Assembly (NCBI GenBank): GCA_027315365.1
Contig: DAHUYF010000123.1
Location: forward strand, 1-64,000
DNA: 64,000 nucleotides
From: Rhodospirillales bacterium
GTDB lineage: Bacteria; Pseudomonadota; Alphaproteobacteria; ATCC43930; CGMCC-115725
Direction of reading: 5' to 3'
The position numbers were made by a program, and so were the translations under genes. Below the pieces are notes generated by a model. It was given only the letters and a program-made list of their open reading frames with translations. It did not search any database and had not been told where the DNA came from. Positions 22,510 through 47,454 of the stretch are shown piece by piece (position 1 is the stretch's first letter; each line of letters opens with the position of its first letter).

Positions 22510-22523
22510 TTGACCTGGATCAA
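22510..22523 (+). promoter_or_regulatory. FNR/FixK-type site TTGACCTGGATCAA upstream of ccoN
   Basis: Perfect palindrome centred 84 bp upstream of the ccoN start. FNR, FixK or Anr control of ccoN from such a site is established in many proteobacteria, so this copy anchors the reading of all other copies in the window. Confidence 0.9.
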
Positions 22524-22599
22524 GGCGGCAGCGGGCGCGGTGCTGTCAACTGCCGGCCCATATGGGTCTTTGGACCCGCGGATGGCTGCGAGGGAAGCG

Positions 22600-24072
22600 A
22601 TGGCTGTTGCGGTAACGACAAAGGATACGGCGCTGCCGGCCGAGCGCTACAATGAGGACGTCGTCAGGGCTTTTGTCATCGCCACCGTCTTCTGGGGTCT
22701 TGCCGCCTTCGCGGTCGGCGTCTTTATCGCCTTCCAGCTCACCTTCCCCGTCCTCAATCTCGGCCTCGAATGGACCAGCTTCGGCCGGCTGCGACCGCTG
22801 CACACCTCGGCGGCGATCTTCGCCTTCGGCGGCAACGCGCTGCTGGGGACGTCCTTTTATGTCGTCCAGCGCACCTGCCGCGCGACGCTGTGGGGCGGCC
22901 GCCCGCTGGCGTGGTTCATCTTCTGGGGCTATCAGTTCTTCATCGTCATGGCGGCGGTGGGATATCTCGAAGGCGTCACCAAGAGCCGCGAATACGCCGA
23001 GCCGGAATGGTTCAACGACATCTGGCTGACCATCGTCTGGGTCGCCTATCTCGGCGTCTTCCTCGGCACCGTGCTAAAGCGCCGCGAGCCGCACATCTAT
23101 GTCGCGAACTGGTTCTATCTCGCCTTCATCGTCACCATCGCCGTGCTGCACATCGTCAACAACCTGACCGTGCCTGTCTCGGTGTTCGGCGCCAAGAGCT
23201 ATTCGCTGTTCTCGGGCGTGCAGGACGCGCTCATCCAGTGGTGGTACGGGCATAACGCAGTGGGATTCTTCCTCACCGCCGGCTTTCTCGGAATGATGTA
23301 TTATTTCATCCCGAAGCAGGCCGACCGGCCGATCTATTCCTACCGCCTCTCGGTCGTGCATTTCTGGGCGCTCATCTTCCTCTACATCTGGGCCGGCCCG
23401 CATCATCTCCACTACACCGCCCTTCCCGACTGGGCGCAGACGCTGGGCATGGTCTTCTCGGTCATGCTGTGGATGCCGTCCTGGGGCGGCATGATCAACG
23501 GCCTGATGACGCTATCCGGCGCCTGGGACAAGCTGCGCACCGATCCCGGCCTGCGCTTCTCGGTAACCGCCGTCGCCTTCTACGGCATGTCGACCTTCGA
23601 GGGGCCGATGATGTCGATCAAGCAGGTGAACGGCCTCAGCCACTACACCAACTGGACCATCGGCCACGTGCATTCTGGCGCGCTCGGCTGGGTCGCCTTC
23701 ATCACCTTCGGCGCGCTCTATTATCTCGTGCCGGCGCTATGGCACCGCCGCGGGCTCTATTCCACCCGCCTCGCTTCCTACCACTACTGGATCGCGACGC
23801 TTGGCATCCTCTTCTACATCGTCTCGATGTGGGTCGCCGGCATCATGCAGGGGCTGATGTGGCGCGCCTATGATCAGTACGGCTTCCTGCAATATTCCTT
23901 CGCCGAGGTGGTCGCCCGGATGCATCCGTTCTACCTCATGCGCGCGCTGGGTGGCGTCCTCTTTCTCCTTGGCGCGGTGATCATGGCCTACAATCTCTGG
24001 CGCACCGCGCGCGGCGAGCTCAGCGCCGATCTGCCGGCACGCGTCGGCCTTGCGACGCAGCCGGCGGAGTGA
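22600..24072 (+). CDS. ccoN: cbb3-type cytochrome c oxidase subunit I
   Basis: This is the 490-residue catalytic heme-copper subunit of the high-affinity oxidase, with 12 helices. Motifs seen include [17 protein letters not shown] (heme b ligand), [10 protein letters not shown] (CuB His), GPHHLHYT (CuB His pair) and [14 protein letters not shown] (heme ligands). The ATG at 22600 has AGGGAA just upstream; an ATG at 22582 is possible. It is the first gene of the ccoNOQP operon and reduces O2 to water while pumping protons at low oxygen. Confidence 0.97.
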
Positions 24073-24082
24073 GGGCAAGGCC

Positions 24083-24808
24083 ATGCGCTCATTGCAGGAA
24101 TTCATCGAGCAGAACGCGGTCATGCTGTTGATCGCGACGCTGATCACGATATCGATCGGCGGCATCGTCGAAATCGTCCCTCTCTTCACCATCGAGACGA
24201 CGATCGAGCGCGTCCACGGCGTGCGCCCATATTCGCCGCTCGAGCTCGCCGGCCGCGACATCTACGTGCGCGAAGGCTGCTATCTCTGCCACAGCCAGCA
24301 GATCCGTCCGTTCCGCGACGAGGTTGAGCGCTATGGTCATTACAGCCTGGCGGCCGAGAGCATGTACGATCATCCCTTCCAATGGGGCTCGGAGCGAACC
24401 GGACCCGATCTGGCGCGCGTCGGCGGCAAGTACTCGAATGACTGGCACGTGGCGCATCTCAACAATCCGCGCGATGTGGTGCCGGAATCCGTGATGCCGC
24501 CCTACGCCTTTCTCGGCACGCGGCCGCTCGATCTCGACCAGCTCGCCGCCCATATGCGCACCAATCGCATCGTCGGCGTGCCCTATACCGACGACATGAT
24601 CGCCAACGCCAAGGCCGATGCCCTCGCCCAGGTCGATCCGGCGGCCGACACCGCCGGCCTGCTGCGGCGCTATCCCGGGGCGGCCACCGGCGGGGTCGGC
24701 GGCAGGCCCGACGAGGTCACCGAGCGCGACGCGCTCATCGCCTATCTTCAGGTGCTGGGGACGATGGTCAAGTTCCGCGACATCGATCCCGACGATCTCC
24801 GGCAATAA
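24083..24808 (+). CDS. ccoO: cbb3-type cytochrome c oxidase subunit II
   Basis: This is a 241-residue mono-heme cytochrome c subunit. One N-terminal membrane anchor (about residues 13-33) is followed by the heme motif CYLCH (about residue 67) and a Met ligand in SVMPPYAF. It passes electrons from CcoP to CcoN. It starts 10 bp after ccoN. Confidence 0.97.
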
Positions 24809-24817
24809 GGGGACGCG

Positions 24818-24970
24818 ATGGACTGGCTGCATTTCGTCGATCGGCTGCACGCGCCGCTGTCGGTGCTGATGCTGGTGATCTTCTGCGCGATCGTCGCCTG
24901 GGCCTATGCGCCGCGGCGGCGCAAGGACATGGATGAAAGCGCGCGCATCCCGCTGCGCGACGACGGTTGA
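24818..24970 (+). CDS. ccoQ: cbb3-type oxidase subunit CcoQ
   Basis: This is a 50-residue single-helix protein. The membrane segment is about residues 13-31 (LSVLMLVIFCAIVAWAYA), followed by the basic PRRRKDMDE motif, the standard CcoQ layout. It stabilises the oxidase complex. It lies between ccoO and ccoP with 9-bp gaps on both sides. Confidence 0.92.
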   Translation: MDWLHFVDRLHAPLSVLMLVIFCAIVAWAYAPRRRKDMDESARIPLRDDG

Positions 24971-24979
24971 GGAGCGGCC

Positions 24980-25849
24980 ATGCCGACCAAGCGAGAAAAG
25001 GACGCCGTTACCGGGCGCGAGACCACCGGCCATGAATGGGACGGCATCCGCGAGCTGGACACCCCGTTGCCGAAATGGTGGCTCTACGTCTTCTATGCCT
25101 GCATCGCGTTCGCGGTCGTCTATTCCGTACTCTATCCGTCGATCCCGCTGATCTCGACGCACACGCGCGGCATCCTTGGCTATACCAATCGCGATGCGCT
25201 GACGCGCAGCACCGCCGAGGCCGCGACGCAGCAGGCGAAATTCCGCGACCGTGTCCGCGACGCCTCGCTCGAGGACATTCGCAAGGACCCGGATCTTCTC
25301 GCCTTCGCCGAGACCGGCGGCCGCTCGGCCTTCAACGAGAATTGCGCTCCCTGCCACCGCACCGGCGGCGCCGGCGCCAAGGGCTATCCCAACCTCGCCG
25401 ATGACGATTGGCTGTGGGGCGGTACGCTTGCCGCGATCCATCAGACGATCGCGCATGGCATCCGCAATGCCGACCCGGATTCGCGCCAATCGCAGATGCC
25501 GCGCTTCGGCGCCGACGGCCTGTTGACTCCTCCCCAGATCAGCGACGTCGCGGATTATGTGATGTCGCTGTCGCATCAGCCGGCACCGGCGGACGCGGCG
25601 CGGCGCGGCAGCAAGATCTTCGCCGAGAACTGCGCGCCCTGCCATGGCGAGCACGGCACTGGCAACCAGGAACTCGGCGCCAAGAACCTCACCGACGGCA
25701 TCTGGCTCTATGGCGGCGACAAGGCGACGCTGGTCGAGACGCTCACCTATGCGCGCAACAGCAGCATGCCTTCCTGGAGCGCGCGGCTCGATCCCACGAC
25801 GATCAAGATGCTCGCCATCTACGTCCATTCCCTGGGCGGCGGCCAGTAG
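24980..25849 (+). CDS. ccoP: cbb3-type cytochrome c oxidase subunit III (di-heme)
   Basis: This is a 289-residue subunit with an N-terminal EWDGIRELDTPLPKWW motif, one membrane anchor (about residues 33-53), and two cytochrome c domains, each with a CAPCH motif (about residues 124 and 219). It takes electrons from soluble or membrane cytochromes and passes them to CcoO. Length and order are typical. Confidence 0.97.
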   Translation: MPTKREKDAVTGRETTGHEWDGIRELDTPLPKWWLYVFYACIAFAVVYSVLYPSIPLISTHTRGILGYTNRDALTRSTAEAATQQAKFRDRVRDASLEDIRKDPDLLAFAETGGRSAFNENCAPCHRTGGAGAKGYPNLADDDWLWGGTLAAIHQTIAHGIRNADPDSRQSQMPRFGADGLLTPPQISDVADYVMSLSHQPAPADAARRGSKIFAENCAPCHGEHGTGNQELGAKNLTDGIWLYGGDKATLVETLTYARNSSMPSWSARLDPTTIKMLAIYVHSLGGGQ

Positions 25850-41153: not shown

Positions 41154-41252
41154 TCAGCCACCATCCCGCCAGGACGCCCAGGCCAGCGCTCCCATGAATG
41201 CCAGCGCGGCGAGCACCACCATGGCCAGGTAGAGTTCCTCCCCCATCGTCAT
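41154..41252 (-). CDS. 32-residue single-helix membrane peptide under an FNR-type site
   Basis: This short gene encodes MTMGEELYLA, a hydrophobic helix of about 17 residues and the tail ASWRDGG. GGGAGGTG lies 5-12 bp upstream of the ATG, and a perfect FNR-type palindrome is centred 60 bp upstream. Size and layout recall small oxidase subunits such as CcoQ, CydX or CcoM, but I cannot assign it to a known family. It lies tail-to-tail with the cyclase and is divergent from fixL. Confidence 0.66.
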   Translation of the reverse strand: MTMGEELYLAMVVLAALAFMGALAWASWRDGG

Positions 41253-41304
41253 GACGCACCTCCCATCTTCTGGGGAATGCTGGTCGCGATCGGCGGTCGC
41301 GGCT

Positions 41305-41318
41305 TTGACTTGGATCAA
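41305..41318. promoter_or_regulatory. FNR/FixK-type site TTGACTTGGATCAA
   Basis: Perfect palindrome centred 60 bp upstream of the 32-residue peptide gene (41252) and 194 bp upstream of fixL (41506). The distance favours the small gene; a second effect on fixL is possible. Confidence 0.78.
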
Positions 41319-41505: not shown

Positions 41506-42684
41506 ATGGCGAATACCGGAGCCCTGGACTCTCCCGGCAAAAGCAAAGGCGGGGATTTGGCCGAGACAGCACAGGCGTTGCGCGACAGCGAGGCGCAGCT
41601 TCGCTCGATCATCGAGACGGTGCCGGACGCACTCATCGTCATCGACGAGCAGGGCCTTATCCAATCCTTCAGCCCCGCAGCCGAGCGCCTCTTCGGTTAT
41701 GTCGCGGCCGAGGTGCAGGGGTGCAATGTCAACATGCTCATGCCGTCGCCCTATCGCGAGCAGCATGACGGCAATCTGGCCCGCTATCTCGGCTCCGGCG
41801 AACGGCGGATCATCGGTATCGGCCGCATCGTCGTCGGGCAGCGTGCAGACGGCTCGACCTTCCCCATGGAGCTGGCAGTGGGCGAGGTCAAGCTCAAGGA
41901 CCGGCGCCTCTTCACCGGCTTCCTGCGCGACATCACCGAGCGGCAAACGGCGCACGAGCGGCTGCAGGAGCTGCAGTCGGAGCTGCTCCGCACCTCCCGC
42001 CTTTCCGCCATGGGGCAGATGGCCTCCGCTCTGGCCCATGAGCTCAACCAGCCGCTGACCGCAGTGATCAACTACGTGCAGGCCTGCCGCCGCATGATGG
42101 GCGGCGACGCGCCGCAATTCGATCGGCTGCAGGAGGTCATGGATAAAGCCGTGGCGCAGGCCAGCCGCGCCGGGCAGATCATCCAGCGCATGCGCCAATT
42201 CATCCAGAAAGGCGAGACCGAGCATCAGCTCGAGGACATCAACAAGGTGGTCGAGGAAGCGAGCGCGCTCGCGCTGGTGGGGGCGCGGGAGAGTGGCATC
42301 CTGGTTCGCATGGAACTGAGCGCGGGCCTGCCGCCGCTAACGCTCGATCGCATCCAGATCCAGCAGGTCGTGCTCAATCTGGTGCGCAACGCCACGGAAG
42401 CGCTGGCGGGCTGCAAACGCCGCGAACTCGCCATCCGCACCGGCCAGCCCAGCGACGCGGCGGTCATGGTCGAGGTGGCCGATACCGGGCCGGGTCTGAA
42501 CGAGGGGGTGAAGAACCAGCTCTTCCAGCCTTTCGTCACCACCAAGCCGAAAGGCATGGGGCTCGGCCTGTCGATCAGCCGCTCGATCATCGAGGCGCAT
42601 GGCGGACGCCTGCAGGGCGGGGCAAATCCGGACGGCGGCGTGACCTTCCGCTTCAGCCTGCCGATTCCCGGGAGGGCGGAGTGA
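41506..42684 (+). CDS. fixL: Oxygen-sensing histidine kinase FixL (soluble, heme PAS)
   Basis: This is a 392-residue soluble kinase with a single PAS domain (about residues 27-145). It keeps the FixL heme features: the proximal His is H87 (YREQHDG) and the distal-side Arg is R107 (RRIIGIGR), matching H200 and R220 of Bradyrhizobium FixL. The kinase domain has H178 in ALAHELNQPLTA and the ATP-binding GMGLGLSISRSI. Oxygen bound to heme inhibits the kinase; low oxygen releases it to phosphorylate FixJ. No membrane helix is present. It is followed after 4 bp by fixJ. Confidence 0.93.
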   Translation: MANTGALDSPGKSKGGDLAETAQALRDSEAQLRSIIETVPDALIVIDEQGLIQSFSPAAERLFGYVAAEVQGCNVNMLMPSPYREQHDGNLARYLGSGERRIIGIGRIVVGQRADGSTFPMELAVGEVKLKDRRLFTGFLRDITERQTAHERLQELQSELLRTSRLSAMGQMASALAHELNQPLTAVINYVQACRRMMGGDAPQFDRLQEVMDKAVAQASRAGQIIQRMRQFIQKGETEHQLEDINKVVEEASALALVGARESGILVRMELSAGLPPLTLDRIQIQQVVLNLVRNATEALAGCKRRELAIRTGQPSDAAVMVEVADTGPGLNEGVKNQLFQPFVTTKPKGMGLGLSISRSIIEAHGGRLQGGANPDGGVTFRFSLPIPGRAE

Positions 42685-42688
42685 CGCG

Positions 42689-43315
42689 ATGAGGCAGGCC
42701 GCGACGATCTTCATCGTGGACGACGACGATGCCATCCGCGACTCGCTGCAGCTCCTGCTGGAAGCGGCGGGGTTCAGGCATATCCGGGTCTACGACTCGA
42801 GCCGCCGCTTTCTCGAGGCGGCGACGCCGCAGCCGGGCGATTGCCTGCTGCTCGACATCCGCATGCCCGACATGGATGGACTCGAGCTGCAGGCCGAGCT
42901 TAACCGGCGCGGCACGCGGCTGGCCGTCATCATCATGACCGGCCATGCCGACGTGCCGATCGCGGTACGCGCGATGAAGGCCGGCGCCGCGGATTTCATC
43001 GAGAAACCGTTCTCCGAGGCGCTGTTGCTCGACGCCGTCCGCCGCGCGCAGGCCCATTCGGTGGAGTTAAGCCGCCAGACCGAGGAAGCCGGCGAGACTC
43101 TGCGGCGCCTGTCGACCCTGACGGCGCGGGAGCGCGACGTGCTCGAGGGCATGGTCGCAGGCCGGCCCAACAAGGTCATTGCCTATGATCTCGGCATCAG
43201 CCCGCGCACCGTCGAGATCCATCGCGCGCGCGTGATGGACAAGATGCAGGCCCGCAGCCTGTCGGGACTGGTCCGTATGGCGCTCGCCGCCGGGGTCGCC
43301 CCCGAGCCGCACTGA
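42689..43315 (+). CDS. fixJ: Response regulator FixJ
   Basis: This is a 208-residue protein. The receiver domain has D56 in LLLDIRMPDMDG and MTGHADVPIAVRAMKAGAADFIEKPF. A LuxR-type helix-turn-helix follows (LTARERDVLEGMVAG to SPRTVEIHRARVMDKM). FixJ normally activates fixK, whose product binds TTGAT-N4-ATCAA sites. No fixK is nearby, so the link to the sites in this window must pass through a gene elsewhere. Confidence 0.93.
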   Translation: MRQAATIFIVDDDDAIRDSLQLLLEAAGFRHIRVYDSSRRFLEAATPQPGDCLLLDIRMPDMDGLELQAELNRRGTRLAVIIMTGHADVPIAVRAMKAGAADFIEKPFSEALLLDAVRRAQAHSVELSRQTEEAGETLRRLSTLTARERDVLEGMVAGRPNKVIAYDLGISPRTVEIHRARVMDKMQARSLSGLVRMALAAGVAPEPH

Positions 43316-43882: not shown

Positions 43883-44212
43883 CTAATCCGAGGCGTTCTG
43901 CAGGATCTGGGCGCGCGCCTTGGCGCCCAGCCTCGCCAGCTGCTGGCCGATCTCGGCCTCGGTCCCCGGCAGGCCGTGGGCGGCGAGATCGCGGCAAACC
44001 TTCTTGATAAGGCCGGTGTCGCCATGCTCGGTGATCTCGGCATCGACCACGCCGAGCGCGTATCGCGCCGCGGCATCGCCGCCGAGACCCATCTTCTCGG
44101 CAGCCCACAAGCCCAGCAGCTTGTTGCGCCGGGCCATGATCCTGAAGGCCACCTCCTGCTCCCGTGCGAAAGTCCGCTCCGCGGCTTTTTCGCGGTCATC
44201 GAACATAGACAT
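43883..44212 (-). CDS. ATP synthase zeta-subunit inhibitor (DUF1476)
   Basis: This is a 109-residue protein of the DUF1476 family (SMFDDREKAAERTFAREQE at the N-terminus and ARRNKLLGLWAAEKMG). In Paracoccus the family member is the zeta subunit, which blocks reverse rotation of F1Fo ATP synthase by inserting its N-terminus. GAGGAGGGG lies before the ATG. An FNR-type site 60 bp upstream would link ATPase inhibition to low oxygen. The catalytic ATP synthase genes are not in the window. Confidence 0.9.
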   Translation of the reverse strand: MSMFDDREKAAERTFAREQEVAFRIMARRNKLLGLWAAEKMGLGGDAAARYALGVVDAEITEHGDTGLIKKVCRDLAAHGLPGTEAEIGQQLARLGAKARAQILQNASD

Positions 44213-44265
44213 GACCCCTCCTCTGAGCCGATGCCGCCATGCTTGCATGCCCCGATCCCGGCGCA

Positions 44266-44279
44266 TTGATCCAGGTCAT
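44266..44279 (-). promoter_or_regulatory. FNR/FixK-type site, 13/14 match (ATGACCTGGATCAA on the minus strand)
   Basis: One end base differs from the palindrome (TTGATCCAGGTCAT on the plus strand). It is centred 60 bp upstream of the zeta inhibitor gene. The TGA on the minus strand is the stop codon of the beta-CASP gene, as at 14232 and 31341. Confidence 0.7.
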
Positions 44280-45895
44280 TCGGCCGCCTTCCCGCCGGGC
44301 GGCACCCGGCGCTGCTCGCGCAGCACCTGCTCCAAGCTGCGCAGCAGCGCTTCGCGCTCCGCTGCATCGCCCGTCCGGCGCAGCCGCTCATTGATCGCGA
44401 GCGCCAGCGCCGCGTGGCGGTTGTGCCAGTCGAGCGCGGACAGGGATTCCGGCGCCAGTCGCACCGCCGCCTGATCGAGCCGCGGGGCGCCGGGCCGATC
44501 CAGGACGAGCGAGGCGTCGAGCAGCGGCAGCAGCACCGGCACGGCCGGCGAGAGACGCGCCTCGAGCGCCGCGGCGAGACCCGCTCTCGCCCCGCCTTCG
44601 CCATGATTGAGGATGATGGCGCGCGCGATCGGCAGGCGTGCAACCACCCAGTCGACCAGCGCCGGCCGGTCGGCATGCGCCGAATAGACGTCGAGCTTGC
44701 GGATTTCCGCCGCGACCCGCACTTCCTCGCCCTCGATCCGCACGGATCTGGTGCCGTCCTGGAGCAGGCGCCCGAGCGTGCCCGGCGCTTGATACCCCAC
44801 CAGCAGCACGGTCGACTGCCGCCGCCAGAGATGCGCCTTGAGGTGGTGGCGGATGCGGCCGGCGTCGCACATGCCGCTGGCGGCGATGATGATCGCGCCC
44901 GAATGGATCCGGTTGAGCGCCTTGCTCTCGGCGACCTCGGCGGTGAAATGAAAGTTGTCGCGATCGAACGGGTTCTGCGCGGCCGCGGCTTCGCCCAGCG
45001 CCTCCAGATGTGCGGCAAACACCTCAGTGGCGCGCACCGCCAGCGGCGAATCGAGGAATACCGGCGTCTCCGGCAGTTCGCCCCGCGCGAACAGCAGGCC
45101 CAGATCGAACAGCAGCTCCTGCGTTCGCTCGACGGCAAACGCCGGGATGATCAGATTGCCGCCGCGTCCGAGCGCGGCCACTACCTCGGCGCGCAGCGCC
45201 TGGCGCCGCTGCTCGGCGCTGAGGTGAGGCCGCTCGCGGTCGCCATAGGTAGCCTCGACCACGACGCAGTCGAATCCCGTCGGCGCTTGCGCCGGGGGTT
45301 GCAGCGCATTGCCCTCCGGGCCGAGATCGCCCGAGAACAGCAGGCGAAGCGGCTTGCCGCCGGCGACAGTGACCTCCAGCTCGATCGAGGCCGAGCCGAG
45401 GATATGGCCGGCCTGCCAGAACCGCGCCCGGACACCCGGCAGCGGCGCAAACCACGCGTCATAGGCGACCGCGGCGATGCGCGGCAGCATCGCCGCGGCG
45501 TCGGCCTTGGTGTAGATCGCGGTCACCGGCGGCTCGCCGCGCTGCTGGCGCCGGCGATTGAGGCGCTCGACTTCGCTTTCCTGCACATATCCGGCGTCCG
45601 GCAGCATATAGGCCAGCAGGTCGCGCGTGCCGTCGGTGGCGAGGATCCGGCCGGAGAATCCCTGACGCACGAGCTTCGGCAGGAGGCCGGTATGGTCGAG
45701 ATGCGCATGCGTCAGCAGCACCGCGCCGAGACCGCCGGGAGCGAAGGGAAACGCGCCGTAATTGAGTTCCTTGAGCGTCTTGCTCCCCTGATAGAGGCCG
45801 CAATCGATCAGCAGCGAGCCGCCGGGCGTTTCCAGCGACGTGCAGGAGCCGGTCACCGTCCCGGCCGCACCGTGGAAGGTCAGCCGCAGGCTCAT
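44276..45895 (-). CDS. Metallo-beta-lactamase/beta-CASP RNA-processing nuclease
   Basis: This is a 539-residue protein. The metallo-beta-lactamase domain has [16 protein letters not shown] (about residues 58-73) and a beta-CASP domain (about 240-365). The C-terminal RMMBL part has [13 protein letters not shown]. This arrangement is that of the CPSF/Ysh1-like bacterial nucleases (COG1236). It may process or decay RNA during stress. Its start overlaps the stop of the phosphorylase gene (ATGA), so it is the third gene of the operon read from the site at 48413. Confidence 0.9.
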
Positions 45896-47454
45896 CGCGG
45901 CGCCGTACCGACGGCGAAGCGGAAGCCGCTGTCCTCGGCCGCCTCCTCGGCAGCGAGGCGAAAATCGACCGGCAGACAGGCGTGAAGGCGATAGAGCGGC
46001 TCGCCCTGCTCGACCCGATCGCCCGGCTGCTTGAAGAGGTCGATGCCGGCGCCCTTGTCGGCTGGGGCGCCCGCCAGCCGGGCGAGCCGCGCGATGCGAT
46101 AGCAGTCCACCGCGGCCACCACGCCGTCGGTCCGCGCGGCCACGTCGCGCGTGAGCGGGCCAAGCGCCGGCGTCGCCGGCGGCGCCCCCTGCGCTGCCAT
46201 GATGCGCTCCATCTTGGCCAGCGCGGCGCCGCTCTCGAGGAGCTCGCGCGCCCGCACGAGGCCGGCGCCGCCGCGCAACGCGGGATCAAATTCGAGGATT
46301 CGGCCGGCGAGCAGCAGCGCGCGCTCGCGCAGCTCCGCCGGCGCCTGCGGCGCGTTGCTCAGCACCTGCAGGACGTCGCGCGCCTCGAGCGCGGGGCCGA
46401 TGCCGCGGCCGATCGGTCGGCTGCCGTCGGTGATCACCACCTCAAGCGGCAAGGAGACCTGGCCCGCCACGTATTCGAAGAGCTTGCGCAGCTGGATCGC
46501 CGCCGCCCCACTGCGCACCTTCGCCGTCGGGCCGACGGGGATGTCGATGAGCAGCCGGTTGGAGCCGGCCGACAGCTTCTTCGACAGGATCGACGCCACC
46601 AGCTGGCCCGGGGCGTCGATGTTGAGCGGCCGCTCCACGGAAATCAGAATATCGTCGGCCGGGGAAAGATTGACGTGCCCGCCCCACACCAGGCAGCCCT
46701 TCTCGGCGGCGACGATATCGCGCATGGTCTCGGTGTCGAGGTCGACGCGCGCCAGCACTTCCATGGTATCGGCCGTACCCGCCGGCGAGGTGATGGCGCG
46801 CGACGACGTCTTCGGAATGGTCAGCCCATGGGCCGCGATGATCGGCACCAGGATCATCGAGGTGCGATTGCCAGGAATACCGCCGATGCAATGCTTGTCC
46901 ACCACCATAGCATCCGGCCAGCTGAGCCGGGATCCGACCGCGGCCATGGCGCGCGTCAGGTGCAGCACCTCGCTCGTCGACAGGAACCCGGCGCAGGCGA
47001 CGACGAAGGCGGCAATCTCCATCTTGGAATAGCGCATGCCGGCGATGTCGCGGATGACGCCCTCCAGCGCCGCCGGCGTCAGCTCTTCGCCGCGGATCTT
47101 GGCGTGCACCGCTTCGAGGCTTTTCGGCGGCACCGCTTGCTCGAGTTCGACGCCGCTGCCCTCCGGCAGGCCGAGGAGCGCGAAAGCCTGCTCGCTCAGT
47201 CCCACCTCGTCCGGCGCGAGCCAGCCCTCGTGATCGACGATATTGAGGGTCGCCAGGATTCGCCGCTCGCCGCTCCCGAGTTCCACCTTTTCCAGTGCCT
47301 GGAATTCGCCTGGGCGGTATATGGCCGAGCGCCGCGGCAGAAAAGCGACCGCCTCGCGGTAGGTGTCGACCGGTATCCGCCGCAGCCGCAGCCGGCCGGC
47401 CGGCTCCCCGTCGCGGCGCGGCGATCCGGTGCCCGCCACCTTCGGCGCATCCAT
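45892..47454 (-). CDS. Nucleoside/nucleotide phosphorylase (AMP phosphorylase-like, DeoA superfamily)
   Basis: This is a 520-residue protein with an extra N-terminal domain of about 85 residues that ordinary thymidine phosphorylase lacks. The core has [34 protein letters not shown] and [12 protein letters not shown]. The length and the [14 protein letters not shown] loop are those of the archaeal AMP phosphorylase type, which splits nucleoside monophosphates to base and ribose 1,5-bisphosphate. Thymidine or other nucleoside activity is also possible. The partner enzymes of the archaeal AMP pathway (R15P isomerase, RuBisCO) are not present here. Confidence 0.88.

Follow-up and report, generated by a model that had tools for sequence, protein, structure and literature searches.

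Between the divergent pair fixL-fixJ and a convergent adenylate-cyclase-like gene of a Rhodospirillales genome lies a frame of 32 codons preceded by an FNR/FixK-type site. The question raised by this locus is whether such a short frame is a gene and, if so, whether its product belongs to a respiratory complex, as an earlier note on this DNA had suggested from its likeness to small oxidase subunits. We followed the frame in the window, meaning the whole stretch of 64,000 nucleotides that was analysed, and across related genomes.

The short gene and its promoter

The short gene that had been claimed is a real one: a minus-strand frame opens with an ATG at 41252, runs over 32 codons (41157-41252, stop at 41154-41156) and encodes MTMGEELYLAMVVLAALAFMGALAWASWRDGG by translation of the window, and the assignment is backed by the family conservation and the pN/pS ratio described below. 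A Shine-Dalgarno (SD) sequence, GGGAGG (41259-41264, minus strand), stands 6 nt ahead of the ATG, as strong a ribosome-binding site as had been proposed, and SD-like sequences recur in relatives. Structure prediction models the peptide as one continuous helix, unbroken from residue 3 to residue 31 with a mean pLDDT of 95.9, which agrees with the single transmembrane helix postulated before. The interval 41154-41318 named in the earlier note reaches from the FNR/FixK-type site to the peptide stop, and the 54-aa TTG frame in the list of open reading frames of the window simply begins within this site. An Rfam search of the window returned nothing at gathering score, and no terminator-like site was detected between 40900 and 41700.

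The divergent neighbour is a gene for a fixL-like oxygen-sensor kinase on the plus strand (41506-42684), matched by the NF041777 FixL model with an E value of 1.7e-150 and 501.9 bits, below the cut-off of 850, and followed on the same strand by the fixJ response regulator gene (42689-43315), which lies above the cut-off of the FixJ equivalog (267.9 bits against 255). The genes ccoN, ccoO and ccoP of a cbb3 oxidase are found 15 kb from the peptide gene on the plus strand (22510-25849), with an FNR-type site at 22510; ccoO was located by TIGR00781 at 24098-24787, inside this gene run, and ccoN and ccoP were identified from their translations, ccoN being in addition a 73% match to a protein of locus L266 (Pfam: COX1). 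On the minus strand at 43883-47454, genes for an ATPase inhibitor zeta subunit, a beta-CASP metallo-hydrolase and an archaeal-type thymidine/AMP phosphorylase stand in a row. Sites of the form TTGAY-N4-RTCAA number 12 in the 64-kb window against a mean of 0.06 in 100 shuffles, which gives the window the look of a low-oxygen gene island, with cco genes, fixLJ and others. The 12 sites span 14232-63653.

The site ahead of the peptide gene, TTGATCCAAGTCAA (41305-41318, minus strand), was found by pattern scan of the window, and similar spacing is seen in relatives. It starts 66 nt before the ATG, with its centre at about 60 nt; in this respect the palindrome 60 bp upstream that had been described stands, yet it is one base off the perfection claimed for it, its coding-strand halves reading TTGAT and TTGAC. 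The window has a single instance of site, start and peptide motif combined, and none of 100 shuffles has one; the motif was itself derived from this peptide family. In class-II FNR promoters the box centre lies at -41.5, and thus box positions 38 and 42 would correspond to -11 and -7. In at least 85 promoters from the pattern scan described below, aligned on the box, A occurs in 48% at position 38 and T in 60% at position 42, and G in 82% and C in 69% at positions 16 and 17 (among the matches listed, n=85); the window bases directly after the box are AGC. Read onto the window, this alignment places a putative -10-like element, CAGCAT, at 41277-41282 (minus strand, box positions 37-42), and the predicted mRNA leader would be about 18 nt long. 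The peptide promoter combines TTGAY-N4-RTCAA with a -10-like element at class-II distance, by which class-II FNR/FixK promoters were recognised. Judged from its bases, the layout is that of a predicted class-II FNR promoter, with the box, the -10 element at the expected place and the Shine-Dalgarno sequence all directed toward the peptide gene, and the FNR-type promoter claimed for it is upheld as such a prediction.

A micropeptide family in Alphaproteobacteria

A single-sequence search of 61 genomes returned the window gene, four matches at E<=0.003 and some weak ones. Two profiles extended the family: a six-sequence profile (A1), with which 387 genomes from the class and 39 from the taxonomic family were searched, and a 28-row core profile (A3), built without the promoter pattern and run on the same 387 class genomes, which matched at E<=0.1 in 95 of the 387, many of these being chance matches within long proteins. 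Since the box was part of the pattern in the pattern scan, the unbiased box count is the one made on the profile matches, which were found without reference to the site. In a first batch of selected short-ORF loci, 18 of 31 had a TTGA-N6-TCAA box within 300 nt upstream; boxes were also present in 16 of 21 weaker matches from outside A3, of which L113 coincides with L045 of the first batch, and in 7 of 9 further short-ORF matches within the class (250 nt searched). None was found for the five matches set aside from the first batch (four inside long frames, and L051), nor for nine matches outside the class and four long-ORF matches inside it (0/13). Pooled, and with an 8-residue frame (L311) left out of the counts, a box precedes 41 of the 60 distinct places judged members, window included, against 0 of the 18 set aside. 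As a check on the selection, the 13 remaining A3-profile matches with a frame of up to 110 residues were read as well; they had no box (0/13), and none was a member by eye; the peptide locus of genome G422 is boxed. Counting every distinct short-frame match that was read, the box stands just upstream in 42 of 74 against 0 of 18 non-family matches. L051 matches only in part, within a long CcmD-like frame, and two of the 13 short frames also resemble CcmD by eye.

Scanning the contigs of named genomes for the pattern itself, a box followed after 50-80 nt by an ATG and four family residues, returned at least 117 stretches, which the A3 score splits, among those listed, into at least 85 loci at 11.8 bits or more and 32 at 3.2 bits or less or unscored, the latter serving as chance controls. 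By their record titles the 85 (among the matches listed) are alphaproteobacterial or labelled just Proteobacteria, with examples in Hyphomicrobium, Reyranella, Kiloniellaceae, Ferrovibrio, Methyloceanibacter, Beijerinckiaceae, Desertibaculum and Caulobacter segnis (L250, boxed); Enhydrobacter (L272) is presumably alphaproteobacterial as well. The 32 chance matches come mostly from other phyla, with a mean G+C of 0.38 against 0.63 for the 85. Among the matches listed, the positions not fixed by the pattern agree with TTGAY-N4-RTCAA in 81 of 85 members and in 7 of 32 chance matches, an SD-like sequence is present in 79 of 85 against 3 of 32, and the distance from box start to ATG is 66-75 nt in 68 of 85 members and in 5 of 32 chance matches. 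The check recommended earlier, a search of related genomes for conserved short frames behind FNR-type sites, has therefore succeeded both in the boxed profile members and in the pattern-scan members.

In 17 independent member pairs of 0.70-0.97 nucleotide identity (choosing pairs by amino-acid identity biases the ratio), pN/pS was 0.28 for the coding frame, and the other two frames, which served as out-of-frame controls, gave 1.45 and 1.37; the peptide frame is under purifying selection. In the A3 alignment M1 and F19 never vary and L9 and L23 hardly do, whereas conserved residues in the 86-row alignment A5 were not counted because the pattern demanded or favoured them. Charges were likewise counted on the 28 A3 rows, most of the N-terminal D/E of the pattern members being demanded by the pattern (110 D/E in the 85 listed members, of which 85 are pattern-demanded glutamates, the remaining 25 comparing with 14 K/R). 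Residues 2-9 of the A3 rows hold 3 K/R and 31 D/E, and their tails, cut at about 34 residues, 39 K/R and 17 D/E; the tails of the 85 pattern members hold 253 K/R and 98 D/E (among the matches listed). By the positive-inside rule, such a distribution suggests that the N terminus lies outside and the basic C-terminal end inside.

About a third of the judged members (19/60) have no box, and these include the closest homologues of the window peptide (L006, L007, L008 and L019). The latter belong to genomes G028, G020 and G011, of which G020 holds two peptide copies, and FixL-like genes together with a gene resembling DoxX are found near three of the four. In the large genome G573, two boxed copies (L297, L316) occur on different contigs, and L042, L043, L108, L112 and others are longer, at 59-67 residues, with about 25-35 extra residues after the helix. 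Closer to the window, three genomes of the same genus, 78-82% complete, gave no profile match; one of them, G002, has a fixL of 73% identity, and in the 1.5 kb before it neither box nor peptide was found, another frame being there. The lack of conservation in close relatives, which the earlier note would have held against the gene, is therefore seen in part within the genus.

Pfam and NCBIfam searches with the window peptide, 30 members of alignment A2 and 86 members of A5 gave scattered weak matches only. Among solved structures, the best sequence match (E 0.058) was to nanobodies and the fold search returned none, and a plasmid tblastn with two family members gave no match. We recognised no description of this family among the papers listed by searches of an open-licence library (passages of PMC5082802 and PMC6515984 included), and the FnrN/FixK section of PMC4999443 names no such gene. 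The micropeptide family is real and conserved and often stands behind an oxygen-control site; it is an apparently undescribed family of one-helix membrane micropeptides in many Alphaproteobacteria.

Neighbouring genes and oxidases of the carriers

Across 123 distinct loci (window included), FixL-like kinases are the most frequent neighbours within 4.5 kb (14), followed by the short-chain dehydrogenase family (13/123), and FixJ-like regulators occur 11 and FNR/CRP regulators 7 times, all as raw counts without a chance level; the other recurring neighbours are mostly common to related genomes. With fixL, fixJ and FNR-type genes recurring, the neighbours point to oxygen control. The peptide locations are scattered and cco genes lie near few of them. 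At L266, from a Rhodospirillales MAG, the peptide gene is directly upstream of, and co-oriented with, ccoN, ccoO and ccoP. A box precedes each of the peptide gene and ccoN, and genes for an FNR-family protein and a universal stress protein are found on the other side. In G422 the boxed peptide stands in the cco cluster near ccoO, with usp, hemN, fnr, ccoN and ccoP read by eye, and an uncertain match without a box (L163, genome G044) has an FNR-family gene, fixJ, fixL, a radical-SAM gene and ccoN in its vicinity. Five loci (L274, L278, L268, L127 and L272) share, within 1.5 kb of the peptide gene, a gene for a protein called at about 125-200 residues (MTLKKVVLELARD... in L274).

Carriers among the class genomes, 41 in all, were defined by A3-profile matches at E<=1e-4 (31) or by weaker matches with a box (10), G044 being left out as uncertain. 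Of the 41 carriers 29 have the cbb3 gene ccoO, compared with 141 of 346 others (Fisher p 0.0004), where the others still count the later-recognised G422, G097 and G339, all three with ccoO, and may include carriers too divergent for the profile. This enrichment may reflect only that the peptide and ccoO are both FNR targets. Twelve of the 41 carriers are without ccoO, and ten of these (G011 and G385 left out) were searched for haem-copper oxidases: eight have a single one, of the aa3 type (G012, G222, G067, G324, G305, G209, G105 and G149), G249 has five and G356 two. The best match in each of the ten is CtaD; the core alone was translated, and its scores of 644-666 bits lie under the cut-off of 670.75. 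In G222, G067, G324 and G305 a boxed peptide goes with one haem-copper oxidase and no cydA. Given these carriers without ccoO, mostly with a single aa3, a cbb3-only role is not supported and cbb3 was rejected as an exclusive partner; it is a possible partner where present but cannot be the sole one. A bd oxidase partner was also rejected: 23 of 41 carriers and 14 of 39 control genomes have cydA (Fisher p 0.08), and 18 of 41 carriers are without cydA and 7 of 41 have neither ccoO nor cydA. In genomes without cbb3, aa3 oxidase or bc1 would be candidate partners.

Several known small subunits invite comparison. CcoQ/FixQ is a small one-helix peptide of the cbb3 operon, encoded between ccoO and ccoP, and ccoM is encoded apart from the oxidase genes. 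CcoQ/FixQ shares small size, single helix and low-oxygen regulon with our peptide, but the window gene lies 15 kb from the cco genes, no FixQ model is among the matches at E 0.1, and the CcoQ position is not occupied by it, the ccoO frame ending at 24808, ccoP starting at 24980 and the peptide lying at 41157. Parts of PMC11742914 describe CydX and CydH as small one-helix subunits of bd oxidase, of which only cydX lies in the oxidase operon in E. coli and CydH is encoded elsewhere. They are alike in size and helix; however, no CydX model is among the matches, many carriers have no cydA, as counted above, and the peptide gene is not with cydAB (cydA on contigs C130 and C6, the peptide on C61). 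SEP20 of Sinorhizobium meliloti, according to the portion of PMC10117765 that covers it, is a small oxidase-linked protein with one predicted helix, encoded inside the ctaCDBGE operon; the likeness to this alphaproteobacterial protein is one of description, and the place of its gene within an oxidase operon sets it apart. CcoM, a 36-aa subunit of the cbb3 oxidase of Pseudomonas stutzeri (NF041600; passages of PMC10433244 and PMC9264385), proved an apt lookalike, as had been suggested earlier. NF041600 is over its cut-off in 24 of 397 genomes of the phylum, and 19 of 20 CcoM loci have a box 78-84 nt before the start, so that length, single helix, FNR-type site about 80 nt upstream and a gene apart from the oxidase are all shared; yet the window-type peptide is also found in genomes without ccoO.

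Possible role of the peptide

Our direct observations are the family itself, the constraint on its coding frame, the layout of its promoter and the repeated association with oxygen-control genes. The reading that we prefer, at a probability of roughly 0.58, is that the peptide is an FNR/FixK-induced single-span accessory peptide of a respiratory complex in the inner membrane, and an accessory role of this kind is likely. As oxygen falls, an FNR/FixK-type activator would bind the site at -41.5 and drive transcription of an mRNA whose short leader contains a strong ribosome-binding site; the peptide would insert in the inner membrane in the orientation proposed above, most likely packing against a subunit of a respiratory complex, and this packing may stabilise the complex or tune it for low oxygen. 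The boxed members, the coding constraint, the class-II layout, the oxygen-control neighbours, the ccoO enrichment, the placement at L266 and in G422 and the CcoM-like anatomy argue for it, while the carriers with neither ccoO nor cydA, the scattered loci, the unboxed members and the three same-genus genomes without a match argue against it.

Two readings would deprive the peptide of any role. If the site at 41305 served fixL only, the frame being there by accident, the divergent fixL would fit, its ATG lying 188 nt from the site, yet spacing, -10 element and SD fit the peptide side, the fixL-side bases at positions 38 and 42 do not, and site and peptide also occur together at loci without a detected FixL-like gene within 4.5 kb, which makes this highly improbable. 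That an FNR-driven short RNA or the promoter is the conserved thing, with an incidental frame, is scarcely credible: strong promoter conservation would agree with it, but the constraint is specific to the frame by pN/pS, contradicting it for the family, and the SD and the A3 residues M1, F19, L9 and L23 are conserved as well.

Other readings accept the peptide and differ on its partner. It might be the alphaproteobacterial CcoM, a homologous subunit specific to cbb3 oxidase, in keeping with its similar size, single helix and boxed promoter, the gene beside ccoNOP at L266 and in G422, and an in-register NF041600 match of 17.4 bits. This score is far below the 40-bit cut-off, however, only 2 of 86 A5 members match NF041600 at E<=0.1, and hhalign against CcoM gave 19% and, in another comparison, 59%, in register, then 15% and 9% with other gap settings, helix-shuffled CcoM scoring as high in 8 of 150 (A5) and 19 of 150 (A3) trials. 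Homology with CcoM is thus not clearly separable in sequence from shuffled helices, and with the carriers without ccoO added, a cbb3-specific homologue seems quite unlikely. Perhaps the peptide regulates at low oxygen a membrane protein outside the respiratory chain (a transporter, a protease target or a sensor), as other small membrane regulators do. Scattered locations with no fixed operon partner would agree with such a role, and so would the carriers without both ccoO and cydA, the chemoreceptor-like gene adjoining the peptide in Caulobacter segnis (L250) and the universal stress protein genes adjoining it at some loci. Still, what recurs beside the gene in unrelated loci is a set of oxygen-control genes and not a single transporter or kinase partner, and peptide presence is enriched with ccoO, and we hold this alternative to be rather unlikely.

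The accessory-peptide reading can be carried further, as a tentative idea: a widespread, unrecognised core micropeptide of the FNR/FixK regulon could retune an ancestral aa3 oxidase or bc1-oxidase supercomplex for low oxygen and later have come to act beside cbb3 too. If true, this would explain its survival in genomes with aa3 as the only detected haem-copper oxidase, and carriers with cbb3 and carriers where aa3 alone was found offer a natural comparison. The FNR/FixK regulon is a textbook oxygen response, and yet its sites are followed in many Alphaproteobacteria by a short gene that has apparently been overlooked because of its length. The combination of promoter and micropeptide in one pattern is a general route to small membrane proteins, and the peptide itself is a concrete candidate for adjusting respiratory complexes at low oxygen.
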